A stretch of 42,457 nt of DNA. It comes from a virus. Under the pieces are notes generated by a model, which searched no databases, was not told the DNA's origin, and saw only the letters and a program-made list of their open reading frames with translations. This document shows positions 19,753 through 42,392 of the stretch, one piece after another; positions within the stretch are counted from its first letter, which is position 1, and each line of letters opens with the position of its first letter. The stretch lies in the IMG/VR virus record IMGVR_UViG_3300005577_000054, positions 1-42,457 of that record, one strand, 5' to 3'. The position numbers were made by a program, and so were the translations under genes.

Positions 19753-19776
19753 GGCATAAGGGCCCACCTATGTCAA
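19753..19776 (-). promoter_or_regulatory. TAGGTGTGCC-type promoter/operator for the ClpP-like gene
   Basis: On the minus strand the sequence reads TTGACA, TAGGTGGGCC, CT, TATGCC. The TAGGTGGGCC lies 29 nt before the ATG of the ClpP-like gene. One base differs from the commonest form. The TTGACA overlaps the 3' end of the zinc-finger gene behind it, so the ClpP-like gene can be expressed separately from the replication operon. Confidence 0.7.
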
Positions 19777-20004
19777 CGGTGGCAGGCCGTGCTTTTTTCG
19801 CACCCAATTCCCGACATCGCGGCGCAAAGTTCGGTCGACTGATTCAGGTGCATCGTCGCCATCGTACCAGACGGAGAAGCATTCGTAGCAGCCAAAAGCC
19901 GTGACATGTTCGGTTGCTGGAAACGTGCGCTCGCAGACCCAGCATGTCTTCGGCAGCAATACCTCACCTACCTCTTTGCCGTACATATAGCAGGCGTCCA
20001 TCAT
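19768..20004 (-). CDS. Small zinc-finger-like protein
   Basis: The 78-aa protein starts at ATG 20004 (a second ATG follows). It has a C-x2-C pair (TCWVCERTFP) and a second C-x2-C pair (FGCYECFSVWYDGDD) 15 residues later, the arrangement of a treble-clef or zinc ribbon. The C-terminal part (RTLRRDVGNWVRKKHGLPPL) is basic and helical. It begins 3 nt after the HAD gene stop and is the last member of the minus-strand operon. Small Cys-ribbon proteins like this are common in phage replication modules; nucleic-acid binding is likely but not shown. Confidence 0.68.
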   Translation of the reverse strand: MMDACYMYGKEVGEVLLPKTCWVCERTFPATEHVTAFGCYECFSVWYDGDDAPESVDRTLRRDVGNWVRKKHGLPPLT

Positions 20005-20007
20005 CGA

Positions 20008-20622
20008 TCACCGTTTGAAAGTCGGTCCCCGCGGCACGTCTTCATCGCCGAGATGCACGTACCGCTTGCGGCCCTGGTCATCCTCGATCAGCTTGATCGG
20101 CATCAGGGCCCGCAGACTGTCGAGCGCTTTCTCGGTTTCCTCGAGGAGAAACCGGACCCTGTTCATCAGCTCGAGCGTGCGATGCTCGAGATGCATGTAC
20201 TTCGCCGCGTCGACGTTGGGGATGGCGCGACTATGGCCGCGCCCGTCAGCCGATTTGTTCCACGGCTCGAACGCCATAAGCTCGGAGATCGCGGGCCAGG
20301 ATCCGGTGAAGGTGATGGCACGATCGTCGAGCGTGATCTTGGCCGGCGGCTTCTCAAGCGGCCATCGGATATGCTGCAGCCATTCACTGCCGAACCCATC
20401 GGCCAGCGAGTTCTTCAACAGCCACTGATGCATGGCGCCGATGCCGCCGTCTTGGTGTGATCGCGAGCTGAAGATGTGGATCTCGAAATGGCTGAGTGCC
20501 TCGCGCAGGAAGCGCAGCGCGCCAGGAACCGGGGGATCCGGGATGATCGTGGCATCCTGCCATTTCGACGTGTAGCTATGGATTACACCGTCGAAGTCTA
20601 CGACCAGAATAGGCTTGCCCAA
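20008..20622 (-). CDS. HAD-superfamily phosphatase-like protein
   Basis: The 204-aa protein starts with TTG 20622, supported by GAGGAG at a spacing of 7-8 nt. It has HAD motif I near the N-terminus (ILVVDFDGVIHSY, with the nucleophile and acid Asp 9 and 11), motif II (IHIFSSRS) and motif III/IV (ITLDDRAITFTG). About 60 C-terminal residues are helical and charged (RTLELMNRVRFLLEETEKALDSLRAL), an extension absent from minimal HAD enzymes. Neighbours are DNA polymerase and a zinc-finger protein, so a role in nucleotide or DNA-end metabolism (for example a 3' phosphatase) is reasonable but not determined. Usual phage HAD proteins are of this size without the extra tail. Confidence 0.8.
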   Translation of the reverse strand: MGKPILVVDFDGVIHSYTSKWQDATIIPDPPVPGALRFLREALSHFEIHIFSSRSHQDGGIGAMHQWLLKNSLADGFGSEWLQHIRWPLEKPPAKITLDDRAITFTGSWPAISELMAFEPWNKSADGRGHSRAIPNVDAAKYMHLEHRTLELMNRVRFLLEETEKALDSLRALMPIKLIEDDQGRKRYVHLGDEDVPRGPTFKR

Positions 20623-20634
20623 GTTTCTTCTCCT

Positions 20635-22722
20635 CTATTTCCCGTATGCAAATCCTGACGACGCTTCACTGGCGAGCGGCAGGCCGTCGAAGCAGGGCAG
20701 CGCATTATTCATGATGTCGCCCATCACCAGCTTGCACTGCTCCTCTTCATCCTCATCGACTTCGCAGCCGATCTCGTCGTGGGTGTGGACGACGATCGGC
20801 CAATCGTTGTCGTCCAGCTCGCGCAGGCCATAGCGCAGGATCGACGCCGCCTCGGCCTGGGTCACGTTCTCGGCCTGGATGCCGCCCCAGAGCTTCATGC
20901 GCGGCCAGTAATTGGTGCCTTTCTTGGGATGGAACGCACCCTTCATCGCCGTCACGGTATCGGCCGGGCCCCAGCGGCCCTTCAGCGTCACGATCTTGGG
21001 GAAGGGATAGGCGATCATGCGGCCCGAGGGCAGCATGCACCACAGCGTGTCCTTGGTGTAGAGATACTCGATGCGGCCAGCAGTGAAGACGGTGTCCTTC
21101 TCGCGCACCGCCTGGAAGGCGGCGACCTCGAGGTCGGCCCAGAAGCGCGGCGCCCAGGGATTGGTCTGGCGCCACGCCATTTTCCAGTCCTCTGCCGTCT
21201 GCTGGTCGATGTCGAGGCCATACACCTTCGCCATGCGCAAGCCCGCGCCCGCGCCGCCGCCGTAGCCAAACGACAGGATCTGCACCTTGCCGCCCTGGCG
21301 CATGCTATCCGTGACGTCATCGAATGAGACACCGAACGACATCGCGGCCTGATGCTTGTAGATGTCATCGCCGCTGGCGAAGATGTCGAGCACCTGCGAG
21401 GCTGAGTTCTGCAGACTGAGCCAGGGCAGCACGCGCGCTTCTATCGAGGACCAGTCTCGCCAGACGAGGATCTTCCCAGGCCCGGATATGATCGATGGCC
21501 GTAGGCATCGTGAAAGGATGGTGAGGATGTTGTAGGGCCGCTTGATGCGCTCCCTTCGCTTCTTGTCTGTGAAAGCGAGACCACCATCACGATCGTATGA
21601 TGCCGTGCGAATGACAGCTTCGGGATCTTCACCCCGAAGAATGCTTTCAACCACATCTTCGATATTAGGTAGGCTGGCCCGAATGAAATTATGGAGCTGT
21701 GCACCTGATGAACTGAAGCGACCGGTTTGCCCTGCACCGTTAAGGTGGTAGGCGCCACGAACACGCTGGTCGTGGTCACTAGCTCGAGCTTCCATCGCGG
21801 CGAATTTCGACGTCGATGCCTTGCCACCGTCATGAACCAGCTCAACGAACTCGCGCACCTCGCCGACCAGGACGTCTTCGTATTCATTACTCAGCATCTC
21901 CTCGCGCTTGGCGGCGTCGAATGAAACCTTGCCTGTCTTCTCGTCAGGATCGAGGAAGAAGGCAATCTCCGGCGGTAGGATCTCCCGGAGCCAGTCCTTG
22001 ATCCGAATATATTGCTTAGGAGTTGTGACAGCGCCGCGGGTGATGACGTTGAGCCTTTCACAGATGTCCGCCAGCTCCTCCCGAGCGTATCTCTGAGCAG
22101 CCCGCGCCAAGCCGATGTCAACCAGCAATCCCCGGTCATTGATCCGTTCATTAACCGCAAAGTCCACTCGCTCTTCTGGCGACAGAGGACGCACGAGTTG
22201 CGCGATCTGCGCCTCCGCTCGAGTGTCGTCGTCGCAATAGGAACAGAGCACCTCAAACTCGTCGAGATCATCGGCCCAGCTCCCGTCCTTCTGCGGCGCG
22301 CACCACTTCCGCATCATGGCGTCGTTGGCCTTCTGCACCGGCACCTGGAGCGCCCTGGCGCACAGCTCGAGCTTGCCCGGCAGCGCCATCGACCGAGCGC
22401 GGATCATGGTGTCGTGGAAGCGCTCAGGCTCGATCTTGATCTTGGCGACGTGCTCGAGGAGTAGGCGCTCGAAGGAGCCGGCGTTCCAACCCTGGATCTC
22501 GACGTCACGATCGTGAAGCGCATCGGCGAGATCGCGCGGCATCTTCTTGTGTTTGCCGCCGAGCCACGGCATCCAGCGGTGGATCCTCTCACCGCCATCG
22601 AATGAGTAGCTGCAGGTCAGGATCCTGGTCGAAGGATGCTGGGCGTAGATGTAGACGCCGCGCTTGACCAGATCGATGACGCTGCGTGTCTCAAGGTCCT
22701 TGTTAAGAGTATAGGTCGCCAC
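20635..22722 (-). CDS. DNA polymerase, family A, with N-terminal 3'-5' exonuclease domain
   Basis: The 695-aa protein starts at GTG 22722. The exonuclease motif I is DLETRS (residues 9-14) and the exonuclease region runs to about residue 190. Polymerase motif A is VWRDWSSIEAR near residue 422, with the metal-binding Asp. Motif B (QGGKVQILSFGYGGG, about 475-489) holds the O-helix Lys and Tyr-Gly. Motif C is HTHDEIGCEV near residue 645. It would replicate the phage genome. It is separated from the upstream operon by an intrinsic terminator, so it may be controlled by attenuation or by its own promoter. Codon use does not stand out from its neighbours. The HAD gene follows after 12 nt. Confidence 0.95.
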   Translation of the reverse strand: MATYTLNKDLETRSVIDLVKRGVYIYAQHPSTRILTCSYSFDGGERIHRWMPWLGGKHKKMPRDLADALHDRDVEIQGWNAGSFERLLLEHVAKIKIEPERFHDTMIRARSMALPGKLELCARALQVPVQKANDAMMRKWCAPQKDGSWADDLDEFEVLCSYCDDDTRAEAQIAQLVRPLSPEERVDFAVNERINDRGLLVDIGLARAAQRYAREELADICERLNVITRGAVTTPKQYIRIKDWLREILPPEIAFFLDPDEKTGKVSFDAAKREEMLSNEYEDVLVGEVREFVELVHDGGKASTSKFAAMEARASDHDQRVRGAYHLNGAGQTGRFSSSGAQLHNFIRASLPNIEDVVESILRGEDPEAVIRTASYDRDGGLAFTDKKRRERIKRPYNILTILSRCLRPSIISGPGKILVWRDWSSIEARVLPWLSLQNSASQVLDIFASGDDIYKHQAAMSFGVSFDDVTDSMRQGGKVQILSFGYGGGAGAGLRMAKVYGLDIDQQTAEDWKMAWRQTNPWAPRFWADLEVAAFQAVREKDTVFTAGRIEYLYTKDTLWCMLPSGRMIAYPFPKIVTLKGRWGPADTVTAMKGAFHPKKGTNYWPRMKLWGGIQAENVTQAEAASILRYGLRELDDNDWPIVVHTHDEIGCEVDEDEEEQCKLVMGDIMNNALPCFDGLPLASEASSGFAYGK

Positions 22723-22745
22723 GCTTCGCCCGCATGAATATGGCG

Positions 22746-22783
22746 AAAAACTCCCCAGGGCCGGTGGGGCCAGACCCTGGGGA
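22746..22783 (-). terminator. Intrinsic terminator between the 307-aa gene and DNA polymerase
   Basis: On the minus strand TCCCCAGGG pairs with CCCTGGGGA across a 14-nt loop, followed by GTTTTT. It lies between the 307-aa gene stop (22825) and the polymerase start (22722), inside what otherwise looks like one operon. It would reduce or condition read-through into the polymerase gene. Confidence 0.75.
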
Positions 22784-22824
22784 TAGGATCCCGGCGCGCC
22801 CCCTCGGGATCGCCGGGGTTCTCG

Positions 22825-23748
22825 TTATCCGCGTCTGCGCCGACGCACGACGCCGCGATCGACTTGCTGGGCGGGCTGCGCGGCGGCAGCGGCGGGACCG
22901 CGTCGACCTCGGGTCGCTTGCGTCTCGGCAGTTGCAGGACCGCGGCGACGCGTTGTCTGCGCAGTCTGGGTCTCGGCCTCCTGCTGCGGCTCGTCCTGGG
23001 CTTCCTCCTGCTGTTCTGCACCCTGGTCGTCTTCCTCGTCGCCTTCTTCAGGCACGACCTTGGTGTTCTCGCCCGTCATGGCGACCCAGTGGTCGACCCT
23101 GAAGATCGGCTTGTACTGGGTACCCCACTTCGGGTGCTGATAGCTGTCGGTGAGAAGCTCGATCACCGGCACGCACAGTTTCGGATTGTCGCCGATCTGC
23201 TGCATGATCGAGGCTAGGAGATCATCGAAGCCGCGCTTGCCACCATCGGAGTTCTGTTGATACGAGAGCACCTTGCCGATGTCCTCGTACTTGTACTTCT
23301 TGTCGGTGCCGCCGATGCACTGACACTGGAACGCCACGCACGGATCCCACACACCGCCATGAGCGGGGTCGGGCAGCTGGTCGGCGATGATGTCGGGGGC
23401 ATTGTCGTCGAAGATGTATTTCATCTTCTTGATCGGCTGCTTGGCCGTCGATTCATTCGGCGGCCATGCGATGGCGCCGATCTGCAGGCTGAACGGATTG
23501 ACGGCCCAGAGGGCGCCTTCCTCCACCTGCGTGTTTTCCTGGCCGTAAACCCATTCCCCCTGGTTCTTCGTCAGTCTGAGGAACAGGCCACGCTGGCCAA
23601 CCTGGATGTGGTCGCGTGCCTTCTGGAGTGACTCTTGCGCTTTCTTGACGAACTTTCCGAGATCTTGTGCGGGTAGGCCTGCATTGGTGAATTTCACCAT
23701 CTCGTTGGGTGCCATTTTCATTTGCCCTTCTGTCTTGCTGTTGCTCAC
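22825..23748 (-). CDS. Replication-associated protein of unknown function (SSB-like position)
   Basis: The 307-aa protein is shown from GTG 23748, which overlaps the DUF2800 stop (GTGA). The ATG at 23715 (MAPNEMVKFTNAGLP) has a better GAAGGG at 9 nt and may be the true start. Residues 20-215 form a globular domain rich in aromatics and Gly (GQRGLFLRLTKNQGEWVYG, WDPCVAFQCQCIGGTDKKY, YKPIFRVDHWVAM). The C-terminal third is disordered: first Glu, Asp, Gln rich, then RRRGP repeats ending in RRRRRG. It lies between nuclease and polymerase genes, and the acidic tail is reminiscent of single-strand binding proteins. That is a positional guess; no OB-fold is demonstrable here. Confidence 0.7.
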   Translation of the reverse strand: MSNSKTEGQMKMAPNEMVKFTNAGLPAQDLGKFVKKAQESLQKARDHIQVGQRGLFLRLTKNQGEWVYGQENTQVEEGALWAVNPFSLQIGAIAWPPNESTAKQPIKKMKYIFDDNAPDIIADQLPDPAHGGVWDPCVAFQCQCIGGTDKKYKYEDIGKVLSYQQNSDGGKRGFDDLLASIMQQIGDNPKLCVPVIELLTDSYQHPKWGTQYKPIFRVDHWVAMTGENTKVVPEEGDEEDDQGAEQQEEAQDEPQQEAETQTAQTTRRRGPATAETQATRGRRGPAAAAAQPAQQVDRGVVRRRRRG

Positions 23749-24869
23749 CTCTTGATGTTTTTGCGCGCCGCCGCGATCGCAGCCACTGGTATGACCGCGG
23801 GACGCTTATCCTCGTGAGGAGCGATGGTGTGTCCGCTCGACACGGGATGGGCGAGGTCTTCAACGATTTTCTTGGAGAGCAGTTTTTCTTTCTCGGCCTG
23901 AGCCGGAGAAACGAGGCTGCGCGGCATGAAGGTATCGTCGTCGACTTTCGCTTTCCTGAACGCTGTGATCGCTTTCGCTTCTGACTTCCATTGCCTTGTA
24001 GCGCGCTTGTCGACCAATTTCCAATGTGGATTTTTTCTGCCGTGCTCGAGTTCATAGAGGAGGCGTTCCTCTGCCTCTTCCATCCACTTCTTCCAGCTCT
24101 TGAATTTCTTCAGCATCGCGCCGAGGTCGTCGAGATCGAGAACGTGGTTCGGCTGCGTGAGCGTCTCGAGGCGCTGCAGCTTGGCAGGACAGGCGAGCTT
24201 CGCCTCACATCCCATGCCCTTGTCGCACCATTCGCCTTCGATGTAGACAGGGTTCGGCATCTGTGATGCCTTTATGGCAGCAAGAAAGTTCGTTTCCTCG
24301 AGGTCGAGAAGATGCTCAGGGTAGCTCGTTTTGACATGGGCAGGCTCGAACGCTGGCTGGATGATCCAGACATCAAGCTGCTTTACCTTGGCAAATGCCG
24401 GTTCGGTCTTACGAGCGCAAATCCCGTAAAACAGCCCTTGCGCATCGGTAACGTCGACCTCCATCTGACCAAATTTGAAATCGATGATTGCGCCTATTTC
24501 ACCAGCAGCAATCCCAGCATCGCAGGTCCCACCCGCTTCGTCGGTGAGATCAACCATGCGCTCGGAGAACAGGACTGCGTCCTCGGGATACTGCTCGAGA
24601 ATGTAGTCGTAGGACTCGAGAGCGATCGAGATCTCGGCGATGTGTTCCTTTTCCAGTGTGACCCCAAGCACGGTCGCGTCGAGAAACCGGTCGGGATCGA
24701 GGCTGCTATCATTGAGCAGCTGCTCCATCACGGCGTGCTGCGCTGTGCCCTTCTGAGCGGCCTCGGAGGTTGGCCGACGTGGTACTTGGGCACTTAGGCT
24801 GGCGTACCCTGCACAGTGCTTCCATCTCTCGCTGTTGGAGCCGCCGTAGACTTTGTGGATTGTTGGCAT
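23745..24869 (-). CDS. DUF2800-type PD-(D/E)XK nuclease (Cas4/RecB-like)
   Basis: The 374-aa protein starts at ATG 24869. It has the RecB-nuclease order: Cys19 in the SNSERWKHCAG motif, the helix GTAQHAVMEQLL with His45, TCDAG with Asp117, IIDFKFG with Asp130 and Lys132, then a Q-containing helix (DAQGLFYG). Three Cys follow as C-x5-C-x5-C in WCDKGMGCEAKLAC. With Cys19 they could hold a 4Fe-4S cluster, as in AddB and Cas4. The last 130 residues are charged and helical with a C-terminal basic tail. In phages this family lies with DNA polymerase and is thought to act in DNA recombination or end processing. Confidence 0.82.
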   Translation of the reverse strand: MPTIHKVYGGSNSERWKHCAGYASLSAQVPRRPTSEAAQKGTAQHAVMEQLLNDSSLDPDRFLDATVLGVTLEKEHIAEISIALESYDYILEQYPEDAVLFSERMVDLTDEAGGTCDAGIAAGEIGAIIDFKFGQMEVDVTDAQGLFYGICARKTEPAFAKVKQLDVWIIQPAFEPAHVKTSYPEHLLDLEETNFLAAIKASQMPNPVYIEGEWCDKGMGCEAKLACPAKLQRLETLTQPNHVLDLDDLGAMLKKFKSWKKWMEEAEERLLYELEHGRKNPHWKLVDKRATRQWKSEAKAITAFRKAKVDDDTFMPRSLVSPAQAEKEKLLSKKIVEDLAHPVSSGHTIAPHEDKRPAVIPVAAIAAARKNIKR

Positions 24870-25623: not shown

Positions 25624-26238
25624 CTAGTCCTTCAGCTCCTGCCGCGCGTCGTCGATCGCGACGTTGAGTTCAGCCATCAGCTGCGGATCGCCGCCTGGGC
25701 TGTCGGGGTGCGCGTCGCGCGCCATCTTCTTATATGTCGCTTCAGCGATCGCGAGCTGCATGTCCTTCGGCAGGCCATCGGCGACCACCATTTTGAAAAC
25801 AGTGCGCCATGGCTTCTTCTGGTACTCGGCATGTCCGCCGGGCGGCGGCAGCGCCTGGAAGCCCGAGAAGGCGCGCTGCATCATGGTGCCGCCGCCATGA
25901 CGCTCGATCGCGCGCATGGCATCGATCGCAAGCGTCAGGCTGCGCGCGTTGGCGTAGACGCTGTCATAGGCATCCTGCGCCATCGTCATCTGGCGGCCGT
26001 TGAGGGTGAAGTAGATCGCGACGCCCGGATCTTGCCGCGGATCGCCGGCCGGGCCGGCGTAGAGCCTGGGCTTGAGGTTGGTGCTGAGAACGACGTCGCG
26101 CGCGCCCAGGCGCGTCAGTTCATCGGTCAAACCTCGAAACGCCCGGTCAGGCGTCAAATTCTTGAAGGCGCGGCCTGACTTCCTGTATTTCGACCGCGGC
26201 CAGCCATGTGGCCATTCCAGTGGATATGCTTCCGCCAT
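25624..26238 (-). CDS. J-domain-containing phage protein
   Basis: I start at ATG 26238 (204 aa) because GGGGAGAT lies 5 nt upstream; an ATG at 26250 adds four residues without a good ribosome site. The N-terminal part starts AYPLEWPHGWPR and contains ELTRLGARDVVLSTNLKPRL and DPGVAIYFTLNGRQMTMAQDAYDSVYANARSL, the layout of a phage family with a C-terminal J domain. At the C-terminus, IAEATYKKMARDAHPDSPGGDPQLMAELNVAIDDAR carries the HPD motif of DnaJ-type co-chaperones. It may recruit host DnaK to replication or virion assembly. It sits between an RHH gene and the Tad2 gene in the early minus-strand operon. Confidence 0.8.
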   Translation of the reverse strand: MAEAYPLEWPHGWPRSKYRKSGRAFKNLTPDRAFRGLTDELTRLGARDVVLSTNLKPRLYAGPAGDPRQDPGVAIYFTLNGRQMTMAQDAYDSVYANARSLTLAIDAMRAIERHGGGTMMQRAFSGFQALPPPGGHAEYQKKPWRTVFKMVVADGLPKDMQLAIAEATYKKMARDAHPDSPGGDPQLMAELNVAIDDARQELKD

Positions 26239-26262
26239 TGATCTCCCCATCCCAGGTGGCGG

Positions 26263-26493
26263 TTAAACTGTGGCCGAGACGCCGTTTTTCTTTTTTGTCG
26301 CGCGCGGTTTGCGTCCCAGGATTTTGTCTGCTTTCTCGCGGGCGGCTGTGGCGATGAAGTGCGATCGTGACACCCCCTCCTTCCTGGCTGCCCGGTCGAC
26401 ATTGTGGGCCCAGTCTGGATGCATATGGGTGTGGATCCGCACGAGATCGCCGGTCTTTGCCAGCCTCCGCCTCGTTACGCCTTCAACTGTCAT
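26263..26493 (-). CDS. Ribbon-helix-helix-like DNA-binding protein (regulator candidate)
   Basis: I start at ATG 26493 (76 aa), which has GAGAGG at about 5 nt; a longer frame would cross the promoter. The sequence TGDLVRIHTHMHPDWAHNVDRAARKEGVSRSHFIATAAREKAD reads as a strand followed by two helices, the ribbon-helix-helix pattern of Arc, MetJ and CopG-type repressors. The C-terminus is Lys and Arg rich (GRKPRATKKK). It is the first gene of the minus-strand operon, 34 nt downstream of a TAGGTGTGCC element, so it may regulate itself and the other copies of that element. The fold call is moderate; the regulon link is inference. Confidence 0.62.
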   Translation of the reverse strand: MTVEGVTRRRLAKTGDLVRIHTHMHPDWAHNVDRAARKEGVSRSHFIATAAREKADKILGRKPRATKKKNGVSATV

Positions 26494-26526: not shown

Positions 26527-26556
26527 CAGATAACGGCACACCTACGGATAAGTCAA
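26527..26556 (-). promoter_or_regulatory. Promoter/operator of the minus-strand replication operon
   Basis: On the minus strand: TTGACT, 6 nt, TAGGTGTGCC, GT, TATCTG. The TTGACT to TTATCT spacing is 17 bp, a normal sigma-70 arrangement, with the TAGGTGTGCC lying inside the spacer as a repressor or activator site would. The -35 hexamer overlaps the start codon of the divergent VRR-NUC gene. Confidence 0.75.
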
Positions 26557-27110: not shown

Positions 27111-28146
27111 TGTCCTCCTCGTCAACAATGCTCTTGTTCCCGCTGTGCTCGAGTATGGCGGTGATGGCTGCGACGGCTTGGTTATCGATGAGCTGTCGAA
27201 GTACCGCGACCCGACCGGCTTCTGGAGCAAGACGCTTCGCGAGGCTCCTTTTACTGTCCGCTCTGGTGGTACTGGCACCCCAGCACCCAATGGTCTCACT
27301 AGCCTATATGGCATGTGCCATGCGCTTGGTCTTGGACATCTCGTGGGTCGCAACTTCGATACGTGGCGCAAGAAATATTTCTACCCGATCGACTATAACC
27401 GCTATGACTGGATCCCGTTCAGGCACACCAAAGGCGAGCTGGCCGAGCTGATCAAACCCTGGACCTACGTGATCGATGACGGCGCGGTCGACCTGCCGAA
27501 GGTGATGAAGGTGCCGATCGAGGTCGACCTGCCGGCCGACCTCAGGGAAAAATACAATGAGATGCGCAAGACGCTCATGCTGTCGGATGAGGGGATCGTG
27601 GCGGCAAACAATGGCGTCGCGCGCAACAAGCTTCGCCAGATCGCATCGGGCTTCGCGTATGACAAGGACGGCGATGCGGTGCGCCTCGGCGATTGGCGCC
27701 TGGAATGTCTGGCCGATCTTGTCGACGAGATGAACGGCAAGCCTCTGATCATCGCCTACGAATTTCGCGAGCAGAAGGCGATGATGAAGAAGCGTTGGCC
27801 GCGCATGCGCTTCATCGGAGGAGATACCAATGCCAAGGAAGACGAAGAAACTATCCGTGCGTGGTCACAAAAGGAAGTGCCGCTGCTCGGCATGCATCCA
27901 GCTTCGGCAGGACATGGACTTAATGATCTCGACCTCGGTGGTAGCAGCATCGCTTGGTGGCAACCCCATGATGATCTCGAATTGTTTGATCAACTCATGG
28001 GACGTCTTACGCGCCGCGGACAGGTTGAAAAAGCAGTTCGGGCTTACATGATCGTGGCCCGCCATACGATCGATACCACGGTGTACGATCGCTTGGGCGA
28101 GAAGACGATCGTCGAACAAGGGTTGTGGAATGCTTTGAGGAGATAG
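26794..28146 (+). CDS. SNF2/DEAD-type DNA helicase
   Basis: I start at ATG 26794 (450 aa), overlapping the nuclease gene in another frame. Motif I (Walker A) is ADVGSGKTW at residues 33-41, motif Ia ..VTAPLRVIQ, motif II DELS near residue 132, motif III SGGTGTPAPNG, and motif VI QLMGRLTRRGQ near residue 401. MHPASAGHGLNDL is the typical motif V region of phage SNF2-like helicases. The paired VRR-NUC gene upstream suggests the two act together on branched or stalled replication intermediates. The protein is at the short end for SNF2 helicases but complete in motifs. The gene ends 2 nt before the start region of the next small gene. Confidence 0.9.
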   Translation: MTPLLTSSSLTPAVFQQEAAGFCYERDSSMLLADVGSGKTWIWLKTIQDWIEEGVIKRAMVTAPLRVIQNVWRQEAIKWQIPLTFACCTGDLSPARRAEEVKARTDVLLVNNALVPAVLEYGGDGCDGLVIDELSKYRDPTGFWSKTLREAPFTVRSGGTGTPAPNGLTSLYGMCHALGLGHLVGRNFDTWRKKYFYPIDYNRYDWIPFRHTKGELAELIKPWTYVIDDGAVDLPKVMKVPIEVDLPADLREKYNEMRKTLMLSDEGIVAANNGVARNKLRQIASGFAYDKDGDAVRLGDWRLECLADLVDEMNGKPLIIAYEFREQKAMMKKRWPRMRFIGGDTNAKEDEETIRAWSQKEVPLLGMHPASAGHGLNDLDLGGSSIAWWQPHDDLELFDQLMGRLTRRGQVEKAVRAYMIVARHTIDTTVYDRLGEKTIVEQGLWNALRR

Positions 28147-28400: not shown

Positions 28401-28432
28401 TTGACTTTTCAAGATAGGTGTGCTACTATGTT
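28401..28432 (+). promoter_or_regulatory. TAGGTGTGCC-type promoter/operator
   Basis: TTGACT, 8 nt, TAGGTGTGCT, AC, TATGTT. The gene start is 55 nt after the T of TAGG. The TTGACT to TATGTT spacing is 20 bp, longer than normal for sigma-70, so the TAGGTGTGC box may substitute for a -35 through a bound activator, or the upstream TTGACT may be fortuitous. Confidence 0.65.
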
Positions 28433-28763: not shown

Positions 28764-28787
28764 TTGACATAGGTGTGCCTCTATGAG
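28764..28787 (+). promoter_or_regulatory. TAGGTGTGCC-type promoter/operator
   Basis: TTGACA, TAGGTGTGCC, TC, TATGAG. The TTGACA directly abuts the box, giving only 12 nt between the two hexamers. The ATG is 48 nt after the box start, preceded by CTACCACGGAGC. Confidence 0.7.
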
Positions 28788-28817
28788 AGCTTGAGGGCTC
28801 CTACCACGGAGCACCTG

Positions 28818-29264
28818 ATGTCAAAGCCTGTCAAATATTTCGTCATCGATCCGCAGGGCCGCGAGCACACTCGCAAGTCGCCCCGCGTCTATACCCATTG
28901 CGTCCTGATCTACACGCCTGCGGCATCGCAGGCTGATGAAGATGCTGCTGTCGCGCGCTACTGGCGCGCACATGCGGCCTACTGGGCATCGCAAGAGCGC
29001 GCCAGCCGCGGCCTCTTCGACGTCGCCACCCAGTATCAGGACCTCAAGGATGCGTGGCAGCGCCAGGGCGCGGCCTTCCTGGTCGAGCATCCTACCAACG
29101 ATGACTACCGTCGGCACATCGAAGCGAAGGCTCGCGAGAATTATCGCGCGCGCACTGACTTCGATACTTGGGGGTCGGTCGGCTGGTGTGGCCGCAAGGA
29201 CCTCGCCTTGAAACTCGCCGCTCAACATCCGGGCTCGCGCATCTTCGAAGCACAGGTGAAGTGA
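28818..29264 (+). CDS. Early phage protein of unknown function
   Basis: The 148-aa protein starts at ATG 28818, 8 nt after GGAGC. It is soluble. It begins KYFVIDPQGREHTRKSPRVYTHCVLIYTP, then a long helical middle rich in Ala, Gln and Arg (ARYWRAHAAYWASQERASRGLFDVA, AAFLVEHPTNDDYRRHIEAKARENYRAR). It ends WGSVGWCGRKDLALKLAAQHPGSRIF. The end segment recalls small phage proteins that wrap the N-terminal strand, but no family is certain. It is first in a chain of seven overlapping genes to 30450. Confidence 0.65.
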   Translation: MSKPVKYFVIDPQGREHTRKSPRVYTHCVLIYTPAASQADEDAAVARYWRAHAAYWASQERASRGLFDVATQYQDLKDAWQRQGAAFLVEHPTNDDYRRHIEAKARENYRARTDFDTWGSVGWCGRKDLALKLAAQHPGSRIFEAQVK

Positions 29265-30288: not shown

Positions 30289-30450
30289 ATGACACCTCTC
30301 GAGTCCTTGCCTTTGGCCGCAGCCCTGCTGGGCTGCGGCGTGCTCGCCTTCCGCTGGGTCGAGCGCCGGGCCGGCGCCGAGCCTGCCTTCTGGGCCATGC
30401 TGATGCTAATCTCGACCACCGTGCTCCTGATGGATGCGATCAGAGGTTGA
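30289..30450 (+). CDS. Small membrane protein (53 aa)
   Basis: ATG 30289 begins 2 nt after the previous stop. The product has two hydrophobic segments (LPLAAALLGCGVLAF and FWAMLMLISTTVLLMDAI) joined by a charged turn (RWVERRAGAEP). The frame is open further upstream, but that part lies in the previous genes. Its stop overlaps the TTGACA of the next promoter. Function unknown. Confidence 0.55.
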   Translation: MTPLESLPLAAALLGCGVLAFRWVERRAGAEPAFWAMLMLISTTVLLMDAIRG

Positions 30451-30470
30451 CATAGGTGTGCCTCTATGGC
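30447..30470 (+). promoter_or_regulatory. TAGGTGTGCC-type promoter/operator
   Basis: TTGACA, TAGGTGTGCC, TC, TATGGC. The ATG lies 48 nt after the box start, preceded by CTACCACGGAGC, the same layout as the element at 28764. Confidence 0.7.
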
Positions 30471-30500
30471 ACGATTTCGGTTCCTACCACGGAGCCTCTG

Positions 30501-31444: not shown

Positions 31445-31468
31445 TTGACATAGGTGTGCCACTAAGAC
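31445..31468 (+). promoter_or_regulatory. TAGGTGTGCC-type promoter/operator
   Basis: TTGACA, TAGGTGTGCC, AC, TAAGAC. The TTGAC overlaps a hairpin (CAAGCCCCC and GGGGGCTTG around TTTTA) that ends the previous gene. The ATG is 59 nt after the box; CCTACC occurs twice in the leader, then CACAGGAGC. Confidence 0.65.
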
Positions 31469-31509
31469 ACCATGTTGACGTTACCTACCACCTACCACAG
31501 GAGCTTTCG

Positions 31510-31845
31510 ATGTCTAACAAGGTTGATGCTGCAGCTGTCGCTGCGCTGGTGAAGGACAACACGCTGACGGGCCTGATCGACCGGCTGGGCGATATCGACG
31601 CGCAGGCCGCACCTCTGATCGCCCGGATCGGCGAGCTGAAGGCGGCGATCATCGTGAAGGGCGGCGCCGGTCGCCATGCCGGCACGCGCTACGACGCGAC
31701 GGTCAGCATCTTCGATCAGGACCGGCTCGACATGGATGCAGTGCGCGCCAAGCTGACGCCGCAGTTCATCCGCGCCCACACGATCACGTCGGTGGTGCGC
31801 AAGGTGCAAATCTTCGCCCGCAAGGTCACGCACTACGCGGCATGA
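31510..31845 (+). CDS. Small protein of unknown function
   Basis: The 111-aa protein starts at ATG 31510 with CAGGAGC at 7 nt; the longer open frame upstream would run through the promoter. It is helical at the N-terminus (AAAVAALVKDNTLTGLIDRLGDIDAQAAPLIARIGELKAAI), with a Gly-rich turn and a basic alpha/beta C-terminal part (RYDATVSIFDQDRLDMDAVRAKLTPQFIRAHTI, VRKVQIFARKVTHYAA). Its N-terminal half resembles helical segments of phage proteins that bind their own promoters, but this is a weak hint. Single-gene unit with its own promoter. Confidence 0.6.
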   Translation: MSNKVDAAAVAALVKDNTLTGLIDRLGDIDAQAAPLIARIGELKAAIIVKGGAGRHAGTRYDATVSIFDQDRLDMDAVRAKLTPQFIRAHTITSVVRKVQIFARKVTHYAA

Positions 31846-32410: not shown

Positions 32411-32591
32411 GATCATCGCCGGCTTCCTGATGACGTCGCGTCCGATGGGCGGCGCCAAGATCCGGGTCGAGTGCGGCAACCGCTCCCTGGTGCTGATCGA
32501 GCCCGAAGGCGCGCCGGTCAGCCGCGAGGATTTCATCGCCGGCAACGTGCCTAAGATGGTGATCCCGAGAGGGGTTGACCCGAAGAGATAG
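32325..32591 (+). CDS. Small protein of unknown function
   Basis: I start at ATG 32325 (88 aa), which has GAGGATC at 6 nt; it overlaps the previous gene by 86 nt in another frame. The product starts MKYLLRWHPTKDHHPMMSTV, then EDENDLAKIIAGFLMTSRPMGGAKIRVECGNRSLVLIEPEG, a possible strand-helix-strand unit. It ends SREDFIAGNVPKMVIPRGVD. No known family. Its end overlaps the TTGACC of the next promoter. Confidence 0.6.
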   Translation: MKYLLRWHPTKDHHPMMSTVAEDENDLAKIIAGFLMTSRPMGGAKIRVECGNRSLVLIEPEGAPVSREDFIAGNVPKMVIPRGVDPKR

Positions 32592-32606
32592 GTGTGCCAC
32601 TATAAT
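32575..32606 (+). promoter_or_regulatory. TAGGTGTGCC-type promoter/operator with consensus -10
   Basis: TTGACC, 8 nt, TAGGTGTGCC, AC, TATAAT. This copy has the perfect TATAAT. The ATG is 56 nt after the box, preceded by CCTACCACAGGAGC. The TTGACC to TATAAT gap is 20 bp, as at 28401. Confidence 0.72.
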
Positions 32607-34573: not shown

Positions 34574-34594
34574 TAGGTGTGCCACACCTAACAT
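34565..34594 (+). promoter_or_regulatory. Perfect palindromic operator TAGGTGTGCCACACCTA with promoter
   Basis: TAGGTGTG and CACACCTA flank a central C at 34574-34590, a perfect 8-bp inverted repeat. This reveals that the dispersed TAGGTGTGCC box is a palindrome half-site. TTGCCT (34565-34570) and TAACAT (34589-34594), spaced 18 bp, make a plausible promoter around it. The TTG start of the next gene is 43 nt after the box start, with GAGGAGG upstream. Confidence 0.72.
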
Positions 34595-34616: not shown

Positions 34617-34892
34617 TTGACCCTGCGCATCATCAAGGAGATCCCGATCGACCTCGGAGGCTACACGCTTCCCCTTCCCATCAGCAGCCGCGTGTTCGAT
34701 GCGGTGCCCGACGGCAAGCTGGGCTGCAAGCTGGTGGTCAACGTGCCGAAGGATACCCAGACCCATAGCTGGCGCGAGTTCTTGGCGACGACGGGCGAGC
34801 CCGAGCTGCAGCAGGGACACTGGTCCCATATCCGCTCGTTCGATCGCGGCGATGGCGTGATCCTGCATGTGCTCGAGAAGGTCGCAGGATGA
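34617..34892 (+). CDS. Small phage protein of unknown function
   Basis: The 91-aa protein starts at TTG 34617 with ACGAGGAGG at 6 nt. It begins MTLRIIKEIPIDLGGYTLPLPISSRVFDAVPDGKLGCKLVVNV and continues SWREFLATTGEPELQQGHWSHIRSFDRGDGVILHVLEKVAG. Short strands with an ILHV motif recall a small phage family with a strand-rich fold, but I cannot assign it. It overlaps the next gene by 4 nt. Confidence 0.6.
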   Translation: MTLRIIKEIPIDLGGYTLPLPISSRVFDAVPDGKLGCKLVVNVPKDTQTHSWREFLATTGEPELQQGHWSHIRSFDRGDGVILHVLEKVAG

Positions 34893-35771: not shown

Positions 35772-36056
35772 ATGAAGATCATCAAGGATACCAAGTCTCG
35801 TGTCAGCGCCTGGGCGTTCCCCGGCGAGATCACCAAGAGCCTGCAGACGTTTGGCTCAGCGACGGTATTCGCCAGTGAGATCGCGGCGCGCTCGACCTTC
35901 CCCAAGAGCACGCCCGTGCGCATCACGATCGTGATCCATCGCCCGCGCCTTTCGGTGTCAGCTGCAGCCCGTCGACGCGCCAAGCGGGCTCAGGATCTCA
36001 AGACATGGCGCAGCAAGATGAAGAAGCTAAGGAGAGACCCACATGCCGTTCGATAG
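35772..36056 (+). CDS. Small basic protein of unknown function
   Basis: The 94-aa protein starts at ATG 35772, 3 nt after the previous stop. The first 50 residues are a beta-rich segment (SRVSAWAFPGEITKSLQTFGSATVFASEIAARSTFPKSTPVRITIVIHRP), and the C-terminus is strongly basic and helical (AAARRRAKRAQDLKTWRSKMKKLRRDPH). Such basic tails often bind nucleic acid. Its end overlaps the first DUF6197 gene by 14 nt. Confidence 0.6.
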   Translation: MKIIKDTKSRVSAWAFPGEITKSLQTFGSATVFASEIAARSTFPKSTPVRITIVIHRPRLSVSAAARRRAKRAQDLKTWRSKMKKLRRDPHAVR

Positions 36057-36531
36057 TGTATTCAAACCGTTCGACCGCAACGCCACGGTCGAGAATTTGC
36101 GCAAGGCCAAGGGGATGATCAGCAACCCGAAAAATTGGTGTCAGGGAGCGTGGTCGAAGACGGTCGCAGCACACACCACCACCGGCACTCCTTGGCTAGT
36201 GGAGCGTGGCCACATCCTGCAGAACCCCGAATGGACGCATGTGCGTCTCTCATGCACGGCCGATGCCGTGCACTGTGCCGTCTATGGCATGAGCGTGGAT
36301 CAAGCGACCGATGGCCTGACCGGCGCTGACGTCGAGGCGCGTCTGAAGTTGTTCGGCCTGCGCCCCGAGATGCAGGCTCTTCAACACTGTCTTTCGATAA
36401 AGACCGGCCACCCTTATGCCGTGAGCGCGATCACGGCCTACAACGATTATCGCGATACCACGCATGCTGACGTGATGGAGCTGTTCGACCGCGCCATCGC
36501 CTATGCCCGCGAGGTGCACCATGCCGTTTGA
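36043..36531 (+). CDS. DUF6197-like protein, copy 1 of 3
   Basis: The 162-aa protein starts at ATG 36043 after GGAGAG. It contains VENLRKAKGMI, NWCQGAW, SCTADAVHCAVYG, then a helical middle, and ends TAYNDYRDTTHADVMELFDRAIAYAREV. The final F/Y-N-D...V-x-x-x-F-D-x-A-I-x-x-A pattern and the S-C-x-A-D-A-x-H motif fit the DUF6197 family found in phages and plasmids. Copies 2 and 3 follow with overlapping starts, and all three begin MPFD. The biochemical function of the family is unknown. Confidence 0.75.
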   Translation: MPFDSVFKPFDRNATVENLRKAKGMISNPKNWCQGAWSKTVAAHTTTGTPWLVERGHILQNPEWTHVRLSCTADAVHCAVYGMSVDQATDGLTGADVEARLKLFGLRPEMQALQHCLSIKTGHPYAVSAITAYNDYRDTTHADVMELFDRAIAYAREVHHAV

Positions 36532-36964
36532 TACTACGCCGCGCGAGGAGCGAAAGCCCACCGTTTGCGAGAACCTGATCAAGGCCCGTAGCATTCTCCG
36601 CCGAGGCCTGTGGTGCCGAAACCAATGGAACGTGTCCCTATCCAACGGCGAGCATCTCTCCTGCGCCGCGGATGCCATCCATGTCGCTCTCCATGGCGAT
36701 AGCTATATCCCCTACCTGAGGAAGCAGGAACTGCTTGGCCAGACCACGCAGGCTCATCGCAATAACTTTCCCAAATGCCCCGAGATCGCGCTGCTGGCCG
36801 ACGTCATTCGTCAATTCAAGCTGAGCATCCCTGACAAGCGCGGTTGGAGCGATCTGAACACCGTGACGGTCTTCAATGATCAAACATCGTATCAGCGTCT
36901 GTTGCTCGCGTTCGATATCGCCATCGAACAGGCGCGCCAGAAGGAGATGACCCATGCCATTTGA
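36521..36964 (+). CDS. DUF6197-like protein, copy 2 of 3
   Basis: The 147-aa protein starts at ATG 36521, overlapping copy 1 by 11 nt. It begins MPFDTTPREERKPTVCENLIKAR, identical in 17 of the first 19 residues to copy 3. It has LSCAADAIHVALHG and ends NTVTVFNDQTSYQRLLLAFDIAIEQAR. The middle diverges strongly from the other copies, consistent with duplication followed by selection for different partners. Function unknown. Confidence 0.75.
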   Translation: MPFDTTPREERKPTVCENLIKARSILRRGLWCRNQWNVSLSNGEHLSCAADAIHVALHGDSYIPYLRKQELLGQTTQAHRNNFPKCPEIALLADVIRQFKLSIPDKRGWSDLNTVTVFNDQTSYQRLLLAFDIAIEQARQKEMTHAI

Positions 36965-37433
36965 TACCACCTCGCGCGAGGAGCGAAAGCCGACCGTCTC
37001 CGAGAACCTGATCAAGGCTCGAGACCTCATTGCCCTCACAGGTCTCTGGTGCAAAAGCGCCTGGAGCACCACGAACATAGATCGGCACGCTTCATGTATG
37101 GCCGATGCCGTGCACATCGTGCTCTATGGCAAGGGGTATTGCGAATATCTCGAGGCGCGCGACGTCGATCCGTACATGTGGGAGCACAAGGGTCGGCACG
37201 ATCGCGAGCTTGATGAGCAGCCCGAAATCCGTTTTCTCGGGCGCGCGCTGATCGAGATGGGAAATACATGGCTAACGACATACTCTTCGACCGAACGCGT
37301 CGTGAAGTTCAACGACCATGAGCACACGCGACACCACCACGTGATGGCTGTGTTCGATTGCGCCATCGCGCTGGCAAAGTGTCGCGAAGCAGAGAACGCT
37401 AAACGCGAGCTTGCAAGCGTTACGTTTCGTTGA
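36954..37433 (+). CDS. DUF6197-like protein, copy 3 of 3
   Basis: The 159-aa protein starts at ATG 36954, overlapping copy 2 by 11 nt, the same overlap length as between copies 1 and 2. It has MPFDTTSREERKPTVSENLIKAR, then LWCKSAW, SCMADAVHIVLYG, and ends VKFNDHEHTRHHHVMAVFDCAIALAK. A His-rich segment (HEHTRHHH) precedes the last helix and is absent from the other copies. It is followed by a strong terminator. Confidence 0.75.
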   Translation: MPFDTTSREERKPTVSENLIKARDLIALTGLWCKSAWSTTNIDRHASCMADAVHIVLYGKGYCEYLEARDVDPYMWEHKGRHDRELDEQPEIRFLGRALIEMGNTWLTTYSSTERVVKFNDHEHTRHHHVMAVFDCAIALAKCREAENAKRELASVTFR

Positions 37434-37460
37434 CGGTGCGATAGTGCACAGAGCATAAAG

Positions 37461-37490
37461 AACGCCCCGCGGTGTGAACCACGGGGCGTT
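37461..37490 (+). terminator. Strong GC-rich hairpin terminator
   Basis: AACGCCCCG-C-GGT pairs with ACC-A-CGGGGCGTT around GTGA, ending in TTTGATTG. It closes the early operon after the DUF6197 genes. The T-run is short. Confidence 0.75.
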
Positions 37491-37587
37491 TGATTGAGCA
37501 CCTACCACAGTGCTTGGGGGCTTGACCGGACGAGACAAACACCCAGGCGCATCCTATCCGTCCTGGGCGACCTCAAGTCAAGCGGGG

Positions 37588-40041: not shown

Positions 40042-40325
40042 TCATGCCAGGACGCATGCCGCAAATGACAGGATGCATCCTGGCAACCTTAACACGTTGA
40101 AAAATCGAACAAATAATCTGATTTGTCAGGATGACACCACTCTTTCTCTATTCTCTCTCTCTTAAAATATATTTCTTTAGATATAGAGAGTGGTGTCATG
40201 TGTTTTTATAGGGGGAGAATAGGCTGAGCATCCTGTCATCCTGGCAAAAATGCCATCCGATGCCGATGGCATATAGCTTTTGCGGCGCCACCATGCCCTA
40301 AAATTCATCCTGGCAAAAATGGGAT
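40042..40325 (+). other. Candidate replication origin with iteron-like repeats
   Basis: This AT-rich, gene-free stretch holds seven copies or near-copies of (G/T)CATCCTGNCA. On the plus strand they lie at 40075-40086, 40229-40238, 40236-40252 and 40305-40321. On the minus strand they lie at about 40046-40055, 40065-40075 and 40123-40133. The two CATCCTGGCAAAAATG copies (40237-40252 and 40306-40321) are identical over 16 bp. An A/T-only-like tract with TTAAAATATATTTC lies between. Iterons plus an AT-rich melting region next to primase-helicase is the usual look of a phage origin. Confidence 0.7.
40131..40199 (+). repeat. 13-bp perfect inverted repeat around an AT-rich core
   Basis: ATGACACCACTCT (40131-40143) and AGAGTGGTGTCAT (40187-40199) are perfect inverted copies. 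They flank a 43-bp pyrimidine and A/T-rich core with TCTCTCTCT and AAAATATATTTC. A cruciform or a dimeric initiator site inside the origin region is likely. Confidence 0.75.
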
Positions 40326-40342
40326 GGTGAGATCCCATTTTT
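40315..40342 (+). terminator. Bidirectional intrinsic terminator
   Basis: AAAAATGGGAT pairs with ATCCCATTTTT around GGTGAG. T-runs on both strands make it function in either direction. Its left arm overlaps the last iteron, so initiator binding and hairpin formation would interfere. Confidence 0.8.
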
Positions 40343-40381
40343 CAGTGAAGACGTCATGCAGAACTTGTAGGGTCCTGAGCC

Positions 40382-40597
40382 ATGGTGGCCGAGAACCAGG
40401 AGAGTGAGATGGCGCAAGCATCGATTGACCGCGAACGGGAACAGGCTGCTGAGGTCGCTCAAGTCCTGATACGATCTCGCGCACCTGCCGTGCTTTGCGG
40501 ATTGCAGATCCTCGAACTGATGGCGAAATTCGATCCCATCCGGTTCGATGAACGCAATCAGATGCTGATTGCCAGTGCGCTGGTGAACACGTTGTGA
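40382..40597 (+). CDS. Small helical protein of unknown function
   Basis: The 71-aa protein starts at ATG 40382; ATG 40409 (MAQASIDREREQ) has GGAGAGTG upstream and may be the real start. The body is helical (DREREQAAEVAQVLIRSRAPAVLCGLQILELMAKFDPIRFDERNQMLIASALVNTL). It sits right behind the origin region and before the terminase-like gene. No domain recognised. Confidence 0.6.
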   Translation: MVAENQESEMAQASIDREREQAAEVAQVLIRSRAPAVLCGLQILELMAKFDPIRFDERNQMLIASALVNTL

Positions 40598-40619
40598 TGC
40601 CTGGATAAACGCGCAGTCC

Positions 40620-40850
40620 ATGCATACGATCATGGTGACCAGGGTTGGCGCGTATGTCGTGCTCGAGCACGGCAAGATCCTGGTCGCTGGTCCTTTCGAG
40701 ACGATGGGTGAGGCTTATGAGCGGTGGGAAGAATGCTGCGCGATCGCCAGGGCCGAAGCGCGTAAAGTCAAGATCCGCTGGTGCGAACCGGATGATGATC
40801 ACGAAGGACGGCAAGTTGCATGTTCGTCCGAGGATCGAGATTGCAACTGA
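40620..40850 (+). CDS. Small protein of unknown function
   Basis: The 76-aa protein starts at ATG 40620 (a second ATG at 40632). It begins as a small beta unit (VTRVGAYVVLEHGKILVAGPFETMGEAYERWEECCAIARAEARKVKIRW), like the short strand-helix-strand proteins of other phages. It ends in an acidic then Cys-containing tail that lies in the overlap with the terminase-like gene. Function unknown. Confidence 0.55.
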   Translation: MHTIMVTRVGAYVVLEHGKILVAGPFETMGEAYERWEECCAIARAEARKVKIRWCEPDDDHEGRQVACSSEDRDCN

Positions 40851-41406
40851 AGAGATCTGTGCCAAGGCGCGCAGGCTTGCGCTACTTGGATGCACGCACA
40901 CAACGATCGCCGTGCATTTGGGAATATCTGACAGCACATTCTCCAAATGGTTGAAGTCGAGCCGGAAGTTCGAGGAAGCCGTAAAGGCCGGAAGCCTGGA
41001 GGCTGATGCGGATGTGGCGAGCGCGCTGTACCGAAGTGCGACGGGCAACCGCAGAACGGTGCAGAAGGAAATCGTGCTCAAGGATGGTAAGGACCGCGAG
41101 TGTGTCGAGGTGGTGGATGTCGTCTTGGAAGACGCGCCGAACGTGACGGCGCAGATCTTCTGGCTGAAGAACCGCCAGCGCCAGCTGTGGCGCGACGTGA
41201 AGGCGACCGAGCTGAGCGGCGTTGATGGCGGGCCGATCAGCAATGAGTTCATCCCAGCGAAGACGCTCGACCACGATGAGCGCGCGCGGCTGCGTGCGTT
41301 CCTCGAGCAGCGCGTGACTGACGTGGTTGATCAGAACAACACAACACAACCGGATGAGGGAGAGAGTGATGCCGAAAGCAACGACACAAGCGAGGGTGAA
41401 GCCTGA
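40792..41406 (+). CDS. Terminase small subunit-like DNA-binding protein
   Basis: I start at ATG 40792 (204 aa); ATG 40717 would add 25 basic residues. The N-terminal part has EEICAKARRLALLGCTHTTIAVHLGISDSTFSKWLKSSRKFEEAVKAG, a helix-turn-helix like those of small terminases. It continues EADADVASALYRSATG, the usual follow-on helix, and DAPNVTAQIFWLKNRQRQLWRD, the typical oligomerisation helix. The C-terminus is Asp, Glu, Ser rich. The protein would recognise the packaging site. The large subunit is not in the window and may follow beyond 42457. Confidence 0.75.
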   Translation: MMITKDGKLHVRPRIEIATEEICAKARRLALLGCTHTTIAVHLGISDSTFSKWLKSSRKFEEAVKAGSLEADADVASALYRSATGNRRTVQKEIVLKDGKDRECVEVVDVVLEDAPNVTAQIFWLKNRQRQLWRDVKATELSGVDGGPISNEFIPAKTLDHDERARLRAFLEQRVTDVVDQNNTTQPDEGESDAESNDTSEGEA

Positions 41407-41602
41407 GCCGCTCAACGTGATGCGCGTGCGAGCGGCGCTCAATCAGCTCTCGAGCGACGACATCACCAAGCTTGATGCCAAGCTGCGCATCATCCAGTTG
41501 GTGCTGCAGGCCAATCTCAACGCAATCAAGGACGATAGGATGGGCGACGAGATCGTGCTCCTGCTGCGTGGCATCCTGGCCAGCCATGGCATCGAGGCTT
41601 GA
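41369..41602 (+). CDS. Small helical protein of unknown function
   Basis: I start at ATG 41369 (77 aa) with GAGGGAGAG upstream, overlapping the terminase-like gene by 38 nt. The product is helical (LNVMRVRAALNQLSSDDITKLDAKLRIIQLVLQANLNAI, GDEIVLLLRGILASHGIEA) with an N-terminal basic arm. No domain recognised. Confidence 0.6.
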   Translation: MPKATTQARVKPEPLNVMRVRAALNQLSSDDITKLDAKLRIIQLVLQANLNAIKDDRMGDEIVLLLRGILASHGIEA

Positions 41603-41606
41603 CAGC

Positions 41607-41652
41607 TTGACTTAGGTGTGCTCGACGTGTTGGTGTCATTCCAGCACACCTA
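41607..41652 (+). promoter_or_regulatory. Inverted pair of TAGGTGTGC operator half-sites
   Basis: TTGACT then TAGGTGTGCT (41613-41622) faces AGCACACCTA (41643-41652), a perfect 10-bp inverted repeat 20 bp apart. No clear -10 follows the first box. The next gene starts at 41697. Repression by looping or DNA bending between the two half-sites would fit. Confidence 0.65.
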
Positions 41653-41696
41653 TTTTCCATAATGGATCTTATGCGATCTTACAGTGTCAAGATCCG

Positions 41697-41966
41697 ATGA
41701 AGCGCACAGGGCCGAGCTGCTTGAATTGTTATTTCTTTTCGCAGGGGAATAATACGTTCGAGGACGATGACGCGACAACCGGCGAGTGCCGCAAGCATGC
41801 GCCCCTTGGGGTGCTGGATGAGGGGGCTCTGACGCACGTACGCCACGCCTTTGCGGTATGGCCCAGGCTCGAGACCGCCAACACCACACTGTGCGGCGAC
41901 TGGCGCCGCACGCCTGAGAATGAACATAGCGCCGACAATGTGAGCAGCGACGAGCTTGACACTTGA
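41697..41966 (+). CDS. Small Cys-ribbon protein
   Basis: I start at ATG 41697 (89 aa); the ribosome site is weak. The product has SCLNCYFFSQGNN, GECRKHAP and TLCGDWRR, giving C-x2-C ... C ... C with a final C-G-x-W as in many small phage zinc-ribbon proteins. The C-terminus is acidic. Metal binding likely; target unknown. Its end overlaps the next promoter's TTGACA. Confidence 0.65.
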   Translation: MKRTGPSCLNCYFFSQGNNTFEDDDATTGECRKHAPLGVLDEGALTHVRHAFAVWPRLETANTTLCGDWRRTPENEHSADNVSSDELDT

Positions 41967-41998
41967 CATAGGTGGGCCACTATGATAGAGGCCCACCT
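41963..41998 (+). promoter_or_regulatory. TAGGTGGGCC-type promoter with inverted half-site pair
   Basis: TTGACA, TAGGTGGGCC, AC, TATGAT, then an inverted copy. AGGTGGGCC (41970-41978) and GGCCCACCT (41990-41998) are perfect 9-bp inverted repeats around the TATGAT. A dimer bound to both arms would cover the -10. No gene with a clear ribosome site follows for 400 bp. Confidence 0.7.
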
Positions 41999-42180
41999 GT
42001 TAGATCGGTGTTGACCAACCCTCACTCCCCGTCAGGCTCAGTCGCACCGATCAGGCGGGCTGGCGTGGTGCCAGCCCGCCCTTCCCATCCCGTCCTGGTG
42101 CGAGGTCGGTCCCCTTAGAAGCTCGAGCCAGTGCGGAGGAGCGCGGCGCCACCCGAGGACCGGGGCGGCGCCGCGCGTTT
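41999..42180 (+). ncRNA. Possible structured non-coding RNA
   Basis: Downstream of the promoter at 41963 no convincing coding frame exists, but three stems do. GATCGGTG pairs with CACCGATC (42003-42010, 42045-42052). GGCGGGCTGGC pairs with GCCAGCCCGCC around GTGGT (42054-42080). GCGCGGCGCC pairs with GGCGCCGCGC (42141-42150, 42167-42176) and is followed by GTTT. A regulatory RNA or mRNA leader is suggested; the transcript itself is not shown. Confidence 0.4.
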
Positions 42181-42358
42181 GTCAACAGCGCATCGGAGGT
42201 AGCCCAGGTTGAGAAGGGACCCGTTGACCGGCGCACCACCAAAAGTCGGGCCGCCGGGTGGAACGGCCGCAAATCGCCTGCCCAATGAGCCCGCCAGAAC
42301 TGGAAAAATTTCTGCCCAATGAGGGGTGGAGAAGAATAAAAAATTTGCAAAAATTTTT
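42181..42358 (+). other. Gene-free region with a 12-bp direct repeat
   Basis: No supported gene. CTGCCCAATGAG occurs twice (42278-42289 and 42312-42323), 34 bp apart. The last 30 bp (AATAAAAAATTTGCAAAAATT) are strongly A/T-rich and lead into the next promoter. Confidence 0.5.
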
Positions 42359-42392
42359 TAGATGTGCCTGTATGATAGGTGTGCTCTTACAA
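42359..42392 (+). promoter_or_regulatory. Tandem TAGRTGTGC promoter/operator
   Basis: TAGATGTGCC, TG, TATGAT is followed at 42376 by a second box, TAGGTGTGC, whose first T is the last T of TATGAT, giving a 17-bp tandem spacing. An A/T-rich stretch precedes it. The first box is 53 nt from the next start codon, within the usual 43-59 range. Confidence 0.68.

Follow-up and report, generated by a model that had tools for sequence, protein, structure and literature searches.

A family of short sequence boxes is dispersed over the promoters of the early and replication genes of this phage and is kept in its relatives. On balance we favor the view that the box, TAGGTG[T/G]GCC-N-N-TA, is an operator lying over the −35/−10 region of ~10 host-type early promoters, most likely bound by a ribbon–helix–helix (RHH) repressor. 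In the window (the whole stretch of 42 457 nt analysed here), a motif scan finds six exact copies of TAGGTGTGCC, at 26535(−), 28770(+), 30453(+), 31451(+), 32589(+) and 34574(+), and copies with one mismatch at 19761(−), 28415(+), 41613(+), 41969(+), 42359(+) and 42376(+). The original prediction had placed eleven or more box sites at these coordinates, and the scan bears it out. The pattern TAGGTG[TG]GC[CT] occurs 12 times, compared with a mean of 0.11 and a maximum of 2 in 200 first-order Markov simulations of the window, and a box followed by TA two to three bases on is found nine times versus zero in simulation. An analysis without a pre-chosen motif leads to it as well: among the 8-mers of the window, TAGGTGTG is the most strongly over-represented (11 copies versus 0.32 expected). 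Additional one-mismatch matches at 27422(−) and 30802(−) lie within coding sequence and look like chance.

The box is confined to one part of the window. Structural genes occupy the plus strand from 1 to 19 kb; a minus-strand block running from 26.5 down to 19.3 kb encodes a family A DNA polymerase and an exonuclease, and a plus-strand block from 26.5 to 42.4 kb encodes a VRR nuclease, helicase, primase and terminase small subunit. No site with zero or one mismatch occurs in the window before 19761, so the structural half is box-free, as had been claimed for the 19-kb structural region; random placement of 12 sites would spare the first 19.7 kb entirely with a probability of 5.6e-4. The 12 main copies run in the same direction as the genes, which agrees with the earlier description of sites facing transcription, but that description overlooked inverted partner copies at 34581(−), 41643(−) and 41990(−). 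The record is probably a fragment because no large terminase was recognised among the scanned window proteins, and its ends (positions 1 and 42457) are probably separated by several missing kilobases. An integrase search gave no match in the six contigs considered here (the window and five relatives, whose records may be fragments) and a match in 14 of 14 control genomes. We also note three consecutive genes at 36043–37433 (+) whose products are similar (start MPFD..., common 'LIKAR...W' pattern), an apparent tandem triplication.

On the minus strand, box TAGGTGGGCCCTTA with an abutting TTGACA (19757–19776) lies upstream of the last gene of the block (19295–19741), and box TAGGTGTGCCGTTA (26531–26556) lies in the promoter of the RHH gene, with TTGACT 6 bp upstream and overlapping the start of the divergent VRR nuclease gene. 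On the plus strand, the box at 28415 (TAGGTGTGCTACTA, 28401–28430) has TTGACT 8 bp upstream, TATGTT at box+12 and TACTAT at 17-bp spacing. Box TAGGTGTGCCTCTA is found twice with an abutting TTGACA, at 28770 (28764–28785, upstream of gene 28815–29264) and at 30453 (30447–30475, upstream of a DUF6011 gene). Box TAGGTGTGCCACTA is likewise present twice: at 31451 (31445–31473) it abuts TTGACA upstream of gene 31507–31845, and at 32589 (32575–32606) it has TTGACC 8 bp upstream and TATAAT at box+12, upstream of a DUF932 gene. A 17-bp perfect palindrome, TAGGTGTGCCACACCTA (34574–34590), consists of two overlapping boxes, without TTGAC, upstream of the gene at 34617. Inverted pairs occur downstream of the terminase small subunit gene (TAGGTGTGCT ... 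AGCACACCTA, 20 bp between, 41613–41652) and at 41963–41999 (TAGGTGGGCC ... GGCCCACCTG, 11 bp between); in the latter, TTGACA abuts the first box, a second TTGACA lies 8 bp further upstream and TATGAT lies between the boxes. Near the record end, boxes TAGATGTGCC and TAGGTGTGCT form a direct repeat on the plus strand, 17 bp apart and without TTGAC (42359–42389). The leaders hold a second element, CCTACCAC (9 copies in the window versus 0.41 expected), found just before GGAG ribosome-binding sites at 28800, 30483, 31484, 31491, 32625 and 37501 (+).

Protein searches identified five relatives (G002, G008, G009, G010 and G011), with DNA polymerases 52–58% identical to that of the window. The closest is G002, where TTGACW is followed directly by TAGGTGGG[C/A]C-N-CTA at 9061, 9760, 11688 and 21521, and where a box variant without TTGAC is present at 13592. 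Three of the G002 boxes, at 9760, 11688 and 21521, lie upstream of genes orthologous to those that follow 28770, 31451 and 30453, respectively, in the window; the last of these genes is located ~10 kb from its window neighbors in G002 and has retained its box. Drifted boxes are still found in TTGAC promoters of the other four relatives, in the forms TAGTGTGCC (G008), TAGTGGGCCCACTA (G009), TAGTTGTGCC-agtat-GGCACAACTA (G010) and TACTTGTGCC-tctat-GGCACAAGTA (G011). One outcome that would have refuted the original prediction, loss of the box in relatives that conserve the flanking genes, is not what we see: the same or a drifted box is present in TTGAC promoters of all five, with three orthologous positions in G002. 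Retention is incomplete, in that the G002 DUF932 orthologue has a different leader. The relatives have leaders (ACCACGGAG) similar to the CCTACCAC leaders of the window, and G002 (L036) additionally carries a repeated ~60-bp leader (GGATCCTGCTGACTGG...GGCGCC, hairpin-like) between early genes at 9322, 11971 and 13782, separate from the box. Tandem AT-rich, iteron-like repeats (GGGAAAATTGAAAATTGAAAAAGGGGACCC) at 60791–60852 (−) of G009 mark a possible replication origin.

Other routes to relatives were less productive. Megablast of the window against phages gave no match, and single-protein scans of viral contigs, queried with the DUF6011 protein or the polymerase, were negative, whereas alignment-based scans did find relatives. 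Exact TAGGTGTGCCNCTATG gave seven isolated matches among viral contigs, in unrelated lower-GC contigs, which we judged to be chance. Among viral contigs TTGACWTAGGTGKGCCNCTA is present in G002 (three sites) and in two others, where it lies inside terminase coding sequence and was also judged to be chance; it was absent from genome contigs. Contigs L041–L050, reached by the 25624–26250 protein alone, lack the box, and their over-represented words are other kinds of repeat. A prophage search with the polymerase alignment found none.

How the box is placed relative to promoter elements bears on what reads it. TTGAC occurs within 14 bp upstream of nine of the 12 boxes and is missing from three; TTGACN abuts the box at six sites and is separated from it by 6 bp at 26535 and by 8 bp at 28415 and 32589. 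These distances of 0, 6 and 8 bp are those described originally, but the TTGACN-to-TAT spacings in the window are 12, 18 and 20, not 12, 17 and 20, and TATNNN, reported after nine boxes, follows eight of the 12 on recounting. The box at 31451 is followed by TAAGAC and that at 42376 by TACAAC, and those at 34574 and 41613 have no TA there. Two promoter geometries coexist around one constant box: (i) TTGACW abuts the box, with a −10-like hexamer 17 bp past TTGACW in G002 (CATAAA, CATAAC, CAAAAC, GATAAC) and less clear or weak −10 elements in the window (CACGAT, CACCAT, CACCTC, GAGCTT) and (ii) TTGAC lies 6–8 bp upstream, with TATNNN overlapping the box end (TATAAT at 32589, TATGTT at 28415). Because the Caulobacter RpoD consensus is TTGaCgS / GCtANAWC (PMC8144410), an alphaproteobacterial-type reading of TAT as the −10 is also possible in the first class.

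The box and its TA are constant while their place relative to −35 and −10 changes, and the box therefore behaves as a protein site laid over promoters. It is probably an operator rather than a polymerase element. A polymerase element is disfavored because G002 retains the box and trailing TA without retaining TATNNN and has its hexamers 17 bp past TTGACW. The inverted pairs point the same way. Their spacing varies (overlapping at 34574, 20 bp at 41613/41643 and 11 bp at 41969/41990), which a core-promoter element would not need, and pairs of this kind together with a perfect palindrome would be expected of a protein-binding site. The fixed box-to-TA distance would be explained if the TA belongs to that site. 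Of the alternatives offered originally, a repressor sitting over the core promoter appears to fit best, and direct reading of the box by the transcription apparatus is disfavored by both the lack of a conserved TATNNN in G002 and the inverted pairs. A second half-site at fixed spacing is not general among the window sites; a 25-bp dyad at each of them is unsupported, such a dyad being present in G010 and G011 only.

A candidate for the binding protein comes from the gene content of the six phages. Seven window proteins are matched in all five relatives: the polymerase, the exonuclease, the 22825–23748 protein (whose gene adjoins that of the exonuclease), the VRR nuclease, the helicase, the primase and the 26263–26493(−) protein, which is the only regulator type among them. 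Its profile match marks this 76-residue protein as a small TacA1/RHH_1-like RHH protein, and the model and fold matches are consistent with that. It scores 22.6 bits with Pfam TacA1 (cut-off 21), and all six orthologues match TacA1 with E-values of up to 0.1. The predicted model (pLDDT 72.9, moderate confidence) has helices at 26–39 and 43–59 following an extended segment, and its top Foldseek matches are CopG, TacA1, AtaR and Arc, all RHH proteins, with E-values above 0.3 because the protein is short and thus none at the 0.001 level.

The RHH gene, whose own promoter carries a box, opens the minus-strand replication block. It is found at the corresponding place in all six phages and diverges from the VRR nuclease gene, next to which it lies in five of them; in G008 the distance is ~0.7 kb. 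Its promoter has the form TTGAC-N17/18-TA. The box there is recognisable in the window, G002, G008 and G010, partial in G011 and not clear in G009. Its neighbors are the divergent VRR nuclease gene and the gene for the 25624–26250 protein, and no toxin partner is evident among the neighboring genes examined. In an alignment, the strand residues that would contact DNA by analogy with CopG are R-H-H in the window, G002 and G008, R-H-Q in G009 and R-P-Q in G010 and G011. These residues appear to track the box groups, a co-variation that runs only along the phylogeny and is confounded by it.

The conserved sites, their placement at early promoters and their co-occurrence with the RHH gene suggest a simple scheme; that the RHH protein is the binder, that it represses and does not activate, and when it acts are inferences. 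Host RNA polymerase would fire the TTGAC early promoters at the start of infection. As RHH protein accumulates, it would occupy the promoter spacer at the box and block polymerase, shutting down the early genes and, by negative feedback, its own gene in an Arc-like manner. The box-free structural genes would escape repression.

Could another protein read the same operators? We regard this as unlikely, whether the reader were the relatives' HTH_3 protein or one encoded in a part of this genome beyond the window. HTH_3-type proteins are present in five of the five relatives near the early/late junction (small Cro/CI-like genes at G002 22600–22866, G008 10348–10647, G009 62584–62943, G010 24265–24525 and G011 58324–58581) and could act as the regulator in those phages, and a window without a recognised large terminase, probably a fragment, could lack such a gene. 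However, HTH_3 has no window match even by family profile, although the window has the most boxes; the region that holds it in G002, between the primase and terminase small subunit genes, is present in the window; and none of the HTH_3 genes was seen with an upstream box. It is quite unlikely that a phage middle-promoter factor uses the box as an activator site, as MotA does in T4. In MotA-dependent middle promoters, the distance between the phage-specific box and a −10-like element is likewise fixed, but the MotA box replaces the −35. In favor of this reading, the window boxes keep a constant distance to TATNNN, several sites have TTGAC and TATNNN at a non-canonical separation, and the abutting-TTGAC class has weak −10-like hexamers. 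The box here nevertheless lies within the spacer, between TTGAC and the −10 region, rather than in place of the −35, TATNNN is unconserved in G002, and the near-consensus TTGACW and −10-like hexamer at 17 bp in that phage make its promoters look self-sufficient.

The promoters may instead be copies of a duplicated promoter-plus-leader cassette in which the box is inherited and unread, given that the leader CCTACCAC[GA]GGAG, as well as TTGACATAGGTG, is common to several sites. This is highly improbable, in our judgment, as the box stays constant while the TTGAC distance, −10 region and leader vary, it persists in relatives at ~55% protein identity, and inverted box pairs exist without the rest of the cassette. 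We give almost no credence to a role of the box as promoter for a single-subunit RNA polymerase of phage type. The box is a compact conserved element that ends in CTAT and is reminiscent of the SP6 promoter, but no copies are found at the structural genes, where such a polymerase would act. RNA_pol (PF00940) has no match in the six contigs, a weak point since the control genomes also gave none.

The preferred reading, repression by the RHH protein, has partial precedents. P22 Arc is a small phage RHH protein that represses a phage promoter by occupying the spacer, its operator in Pant lying between −35 and −10. The system proposed here shares with it a small phage RHH protein, an in-spacer operator and repression of phage promoters, but Arc acts at one locus, whereas here the site is spread over ~10 early promoters, and the window protein resembles TacA1/CopG-type RHH proteins in sequence and is not demonstrably similar to Arc. 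The TacA/AtaR/KacA (DUF1778) antitoxins and CopG are similar in fold, Pfam family and location of the gene behind a promoter with a proposed operator; they regulate one operon, whereas the candidate here would control a regulon. TacA-type antitoxins are encoded next to a cognate GNAT toxin gene, and the candidate has no evident toxin partner among the neighbors examined.

Cluster A mycobacteriophages (L5, Bxb1, Trixie) have stoperator/operator systems of 20–30 sites; most of these lie away from promoters and affect elongation, and the reader is the helix-turn-helix immunity repressor of a temperate phage (PMC6550527, PMC9283540). Like these, the present family repeats one short asymmetric site many times, for the most part in the direction of transcription; its motif drifts between related phages, and there is a site at the locus of the proposed repressor itself. 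Unlike them, the sites here are at promoters (TTGAC within 14 bp upstream of nine of 12), the candidate reader is an RHH protein and the six contigs gave no integrase match. Literature matches listed for the box string came from unrelated contexts, and searches combining RHH proteins with phage early promoters or Arc found no matching system, in coverage that mostly excluded subscription journals. Dispersed phage operators (PMC6550527) are known, and so are in-spacer RHH operators; the literature searched gave no example of the two combined in this phage family.

A broader proposal, which we put forward tentatively and with rather less than even confidence, is that a toxin-less TacA/CopG-like RHH protein acts as master early-gene repressor through spacer operators, an undescribed system in which protein and operators drift together into different specificities across an uncultivated phage family of P22-like structure. 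The family gains a testable transcription program, with a candidate regulator and its sites, and joint change of repressor and operators could be followed across the five relatives, whose drifted sites make a natural series. If the proposal is true, an antitoxin-type RHH protein would be serving as a genome-wide phage switch.
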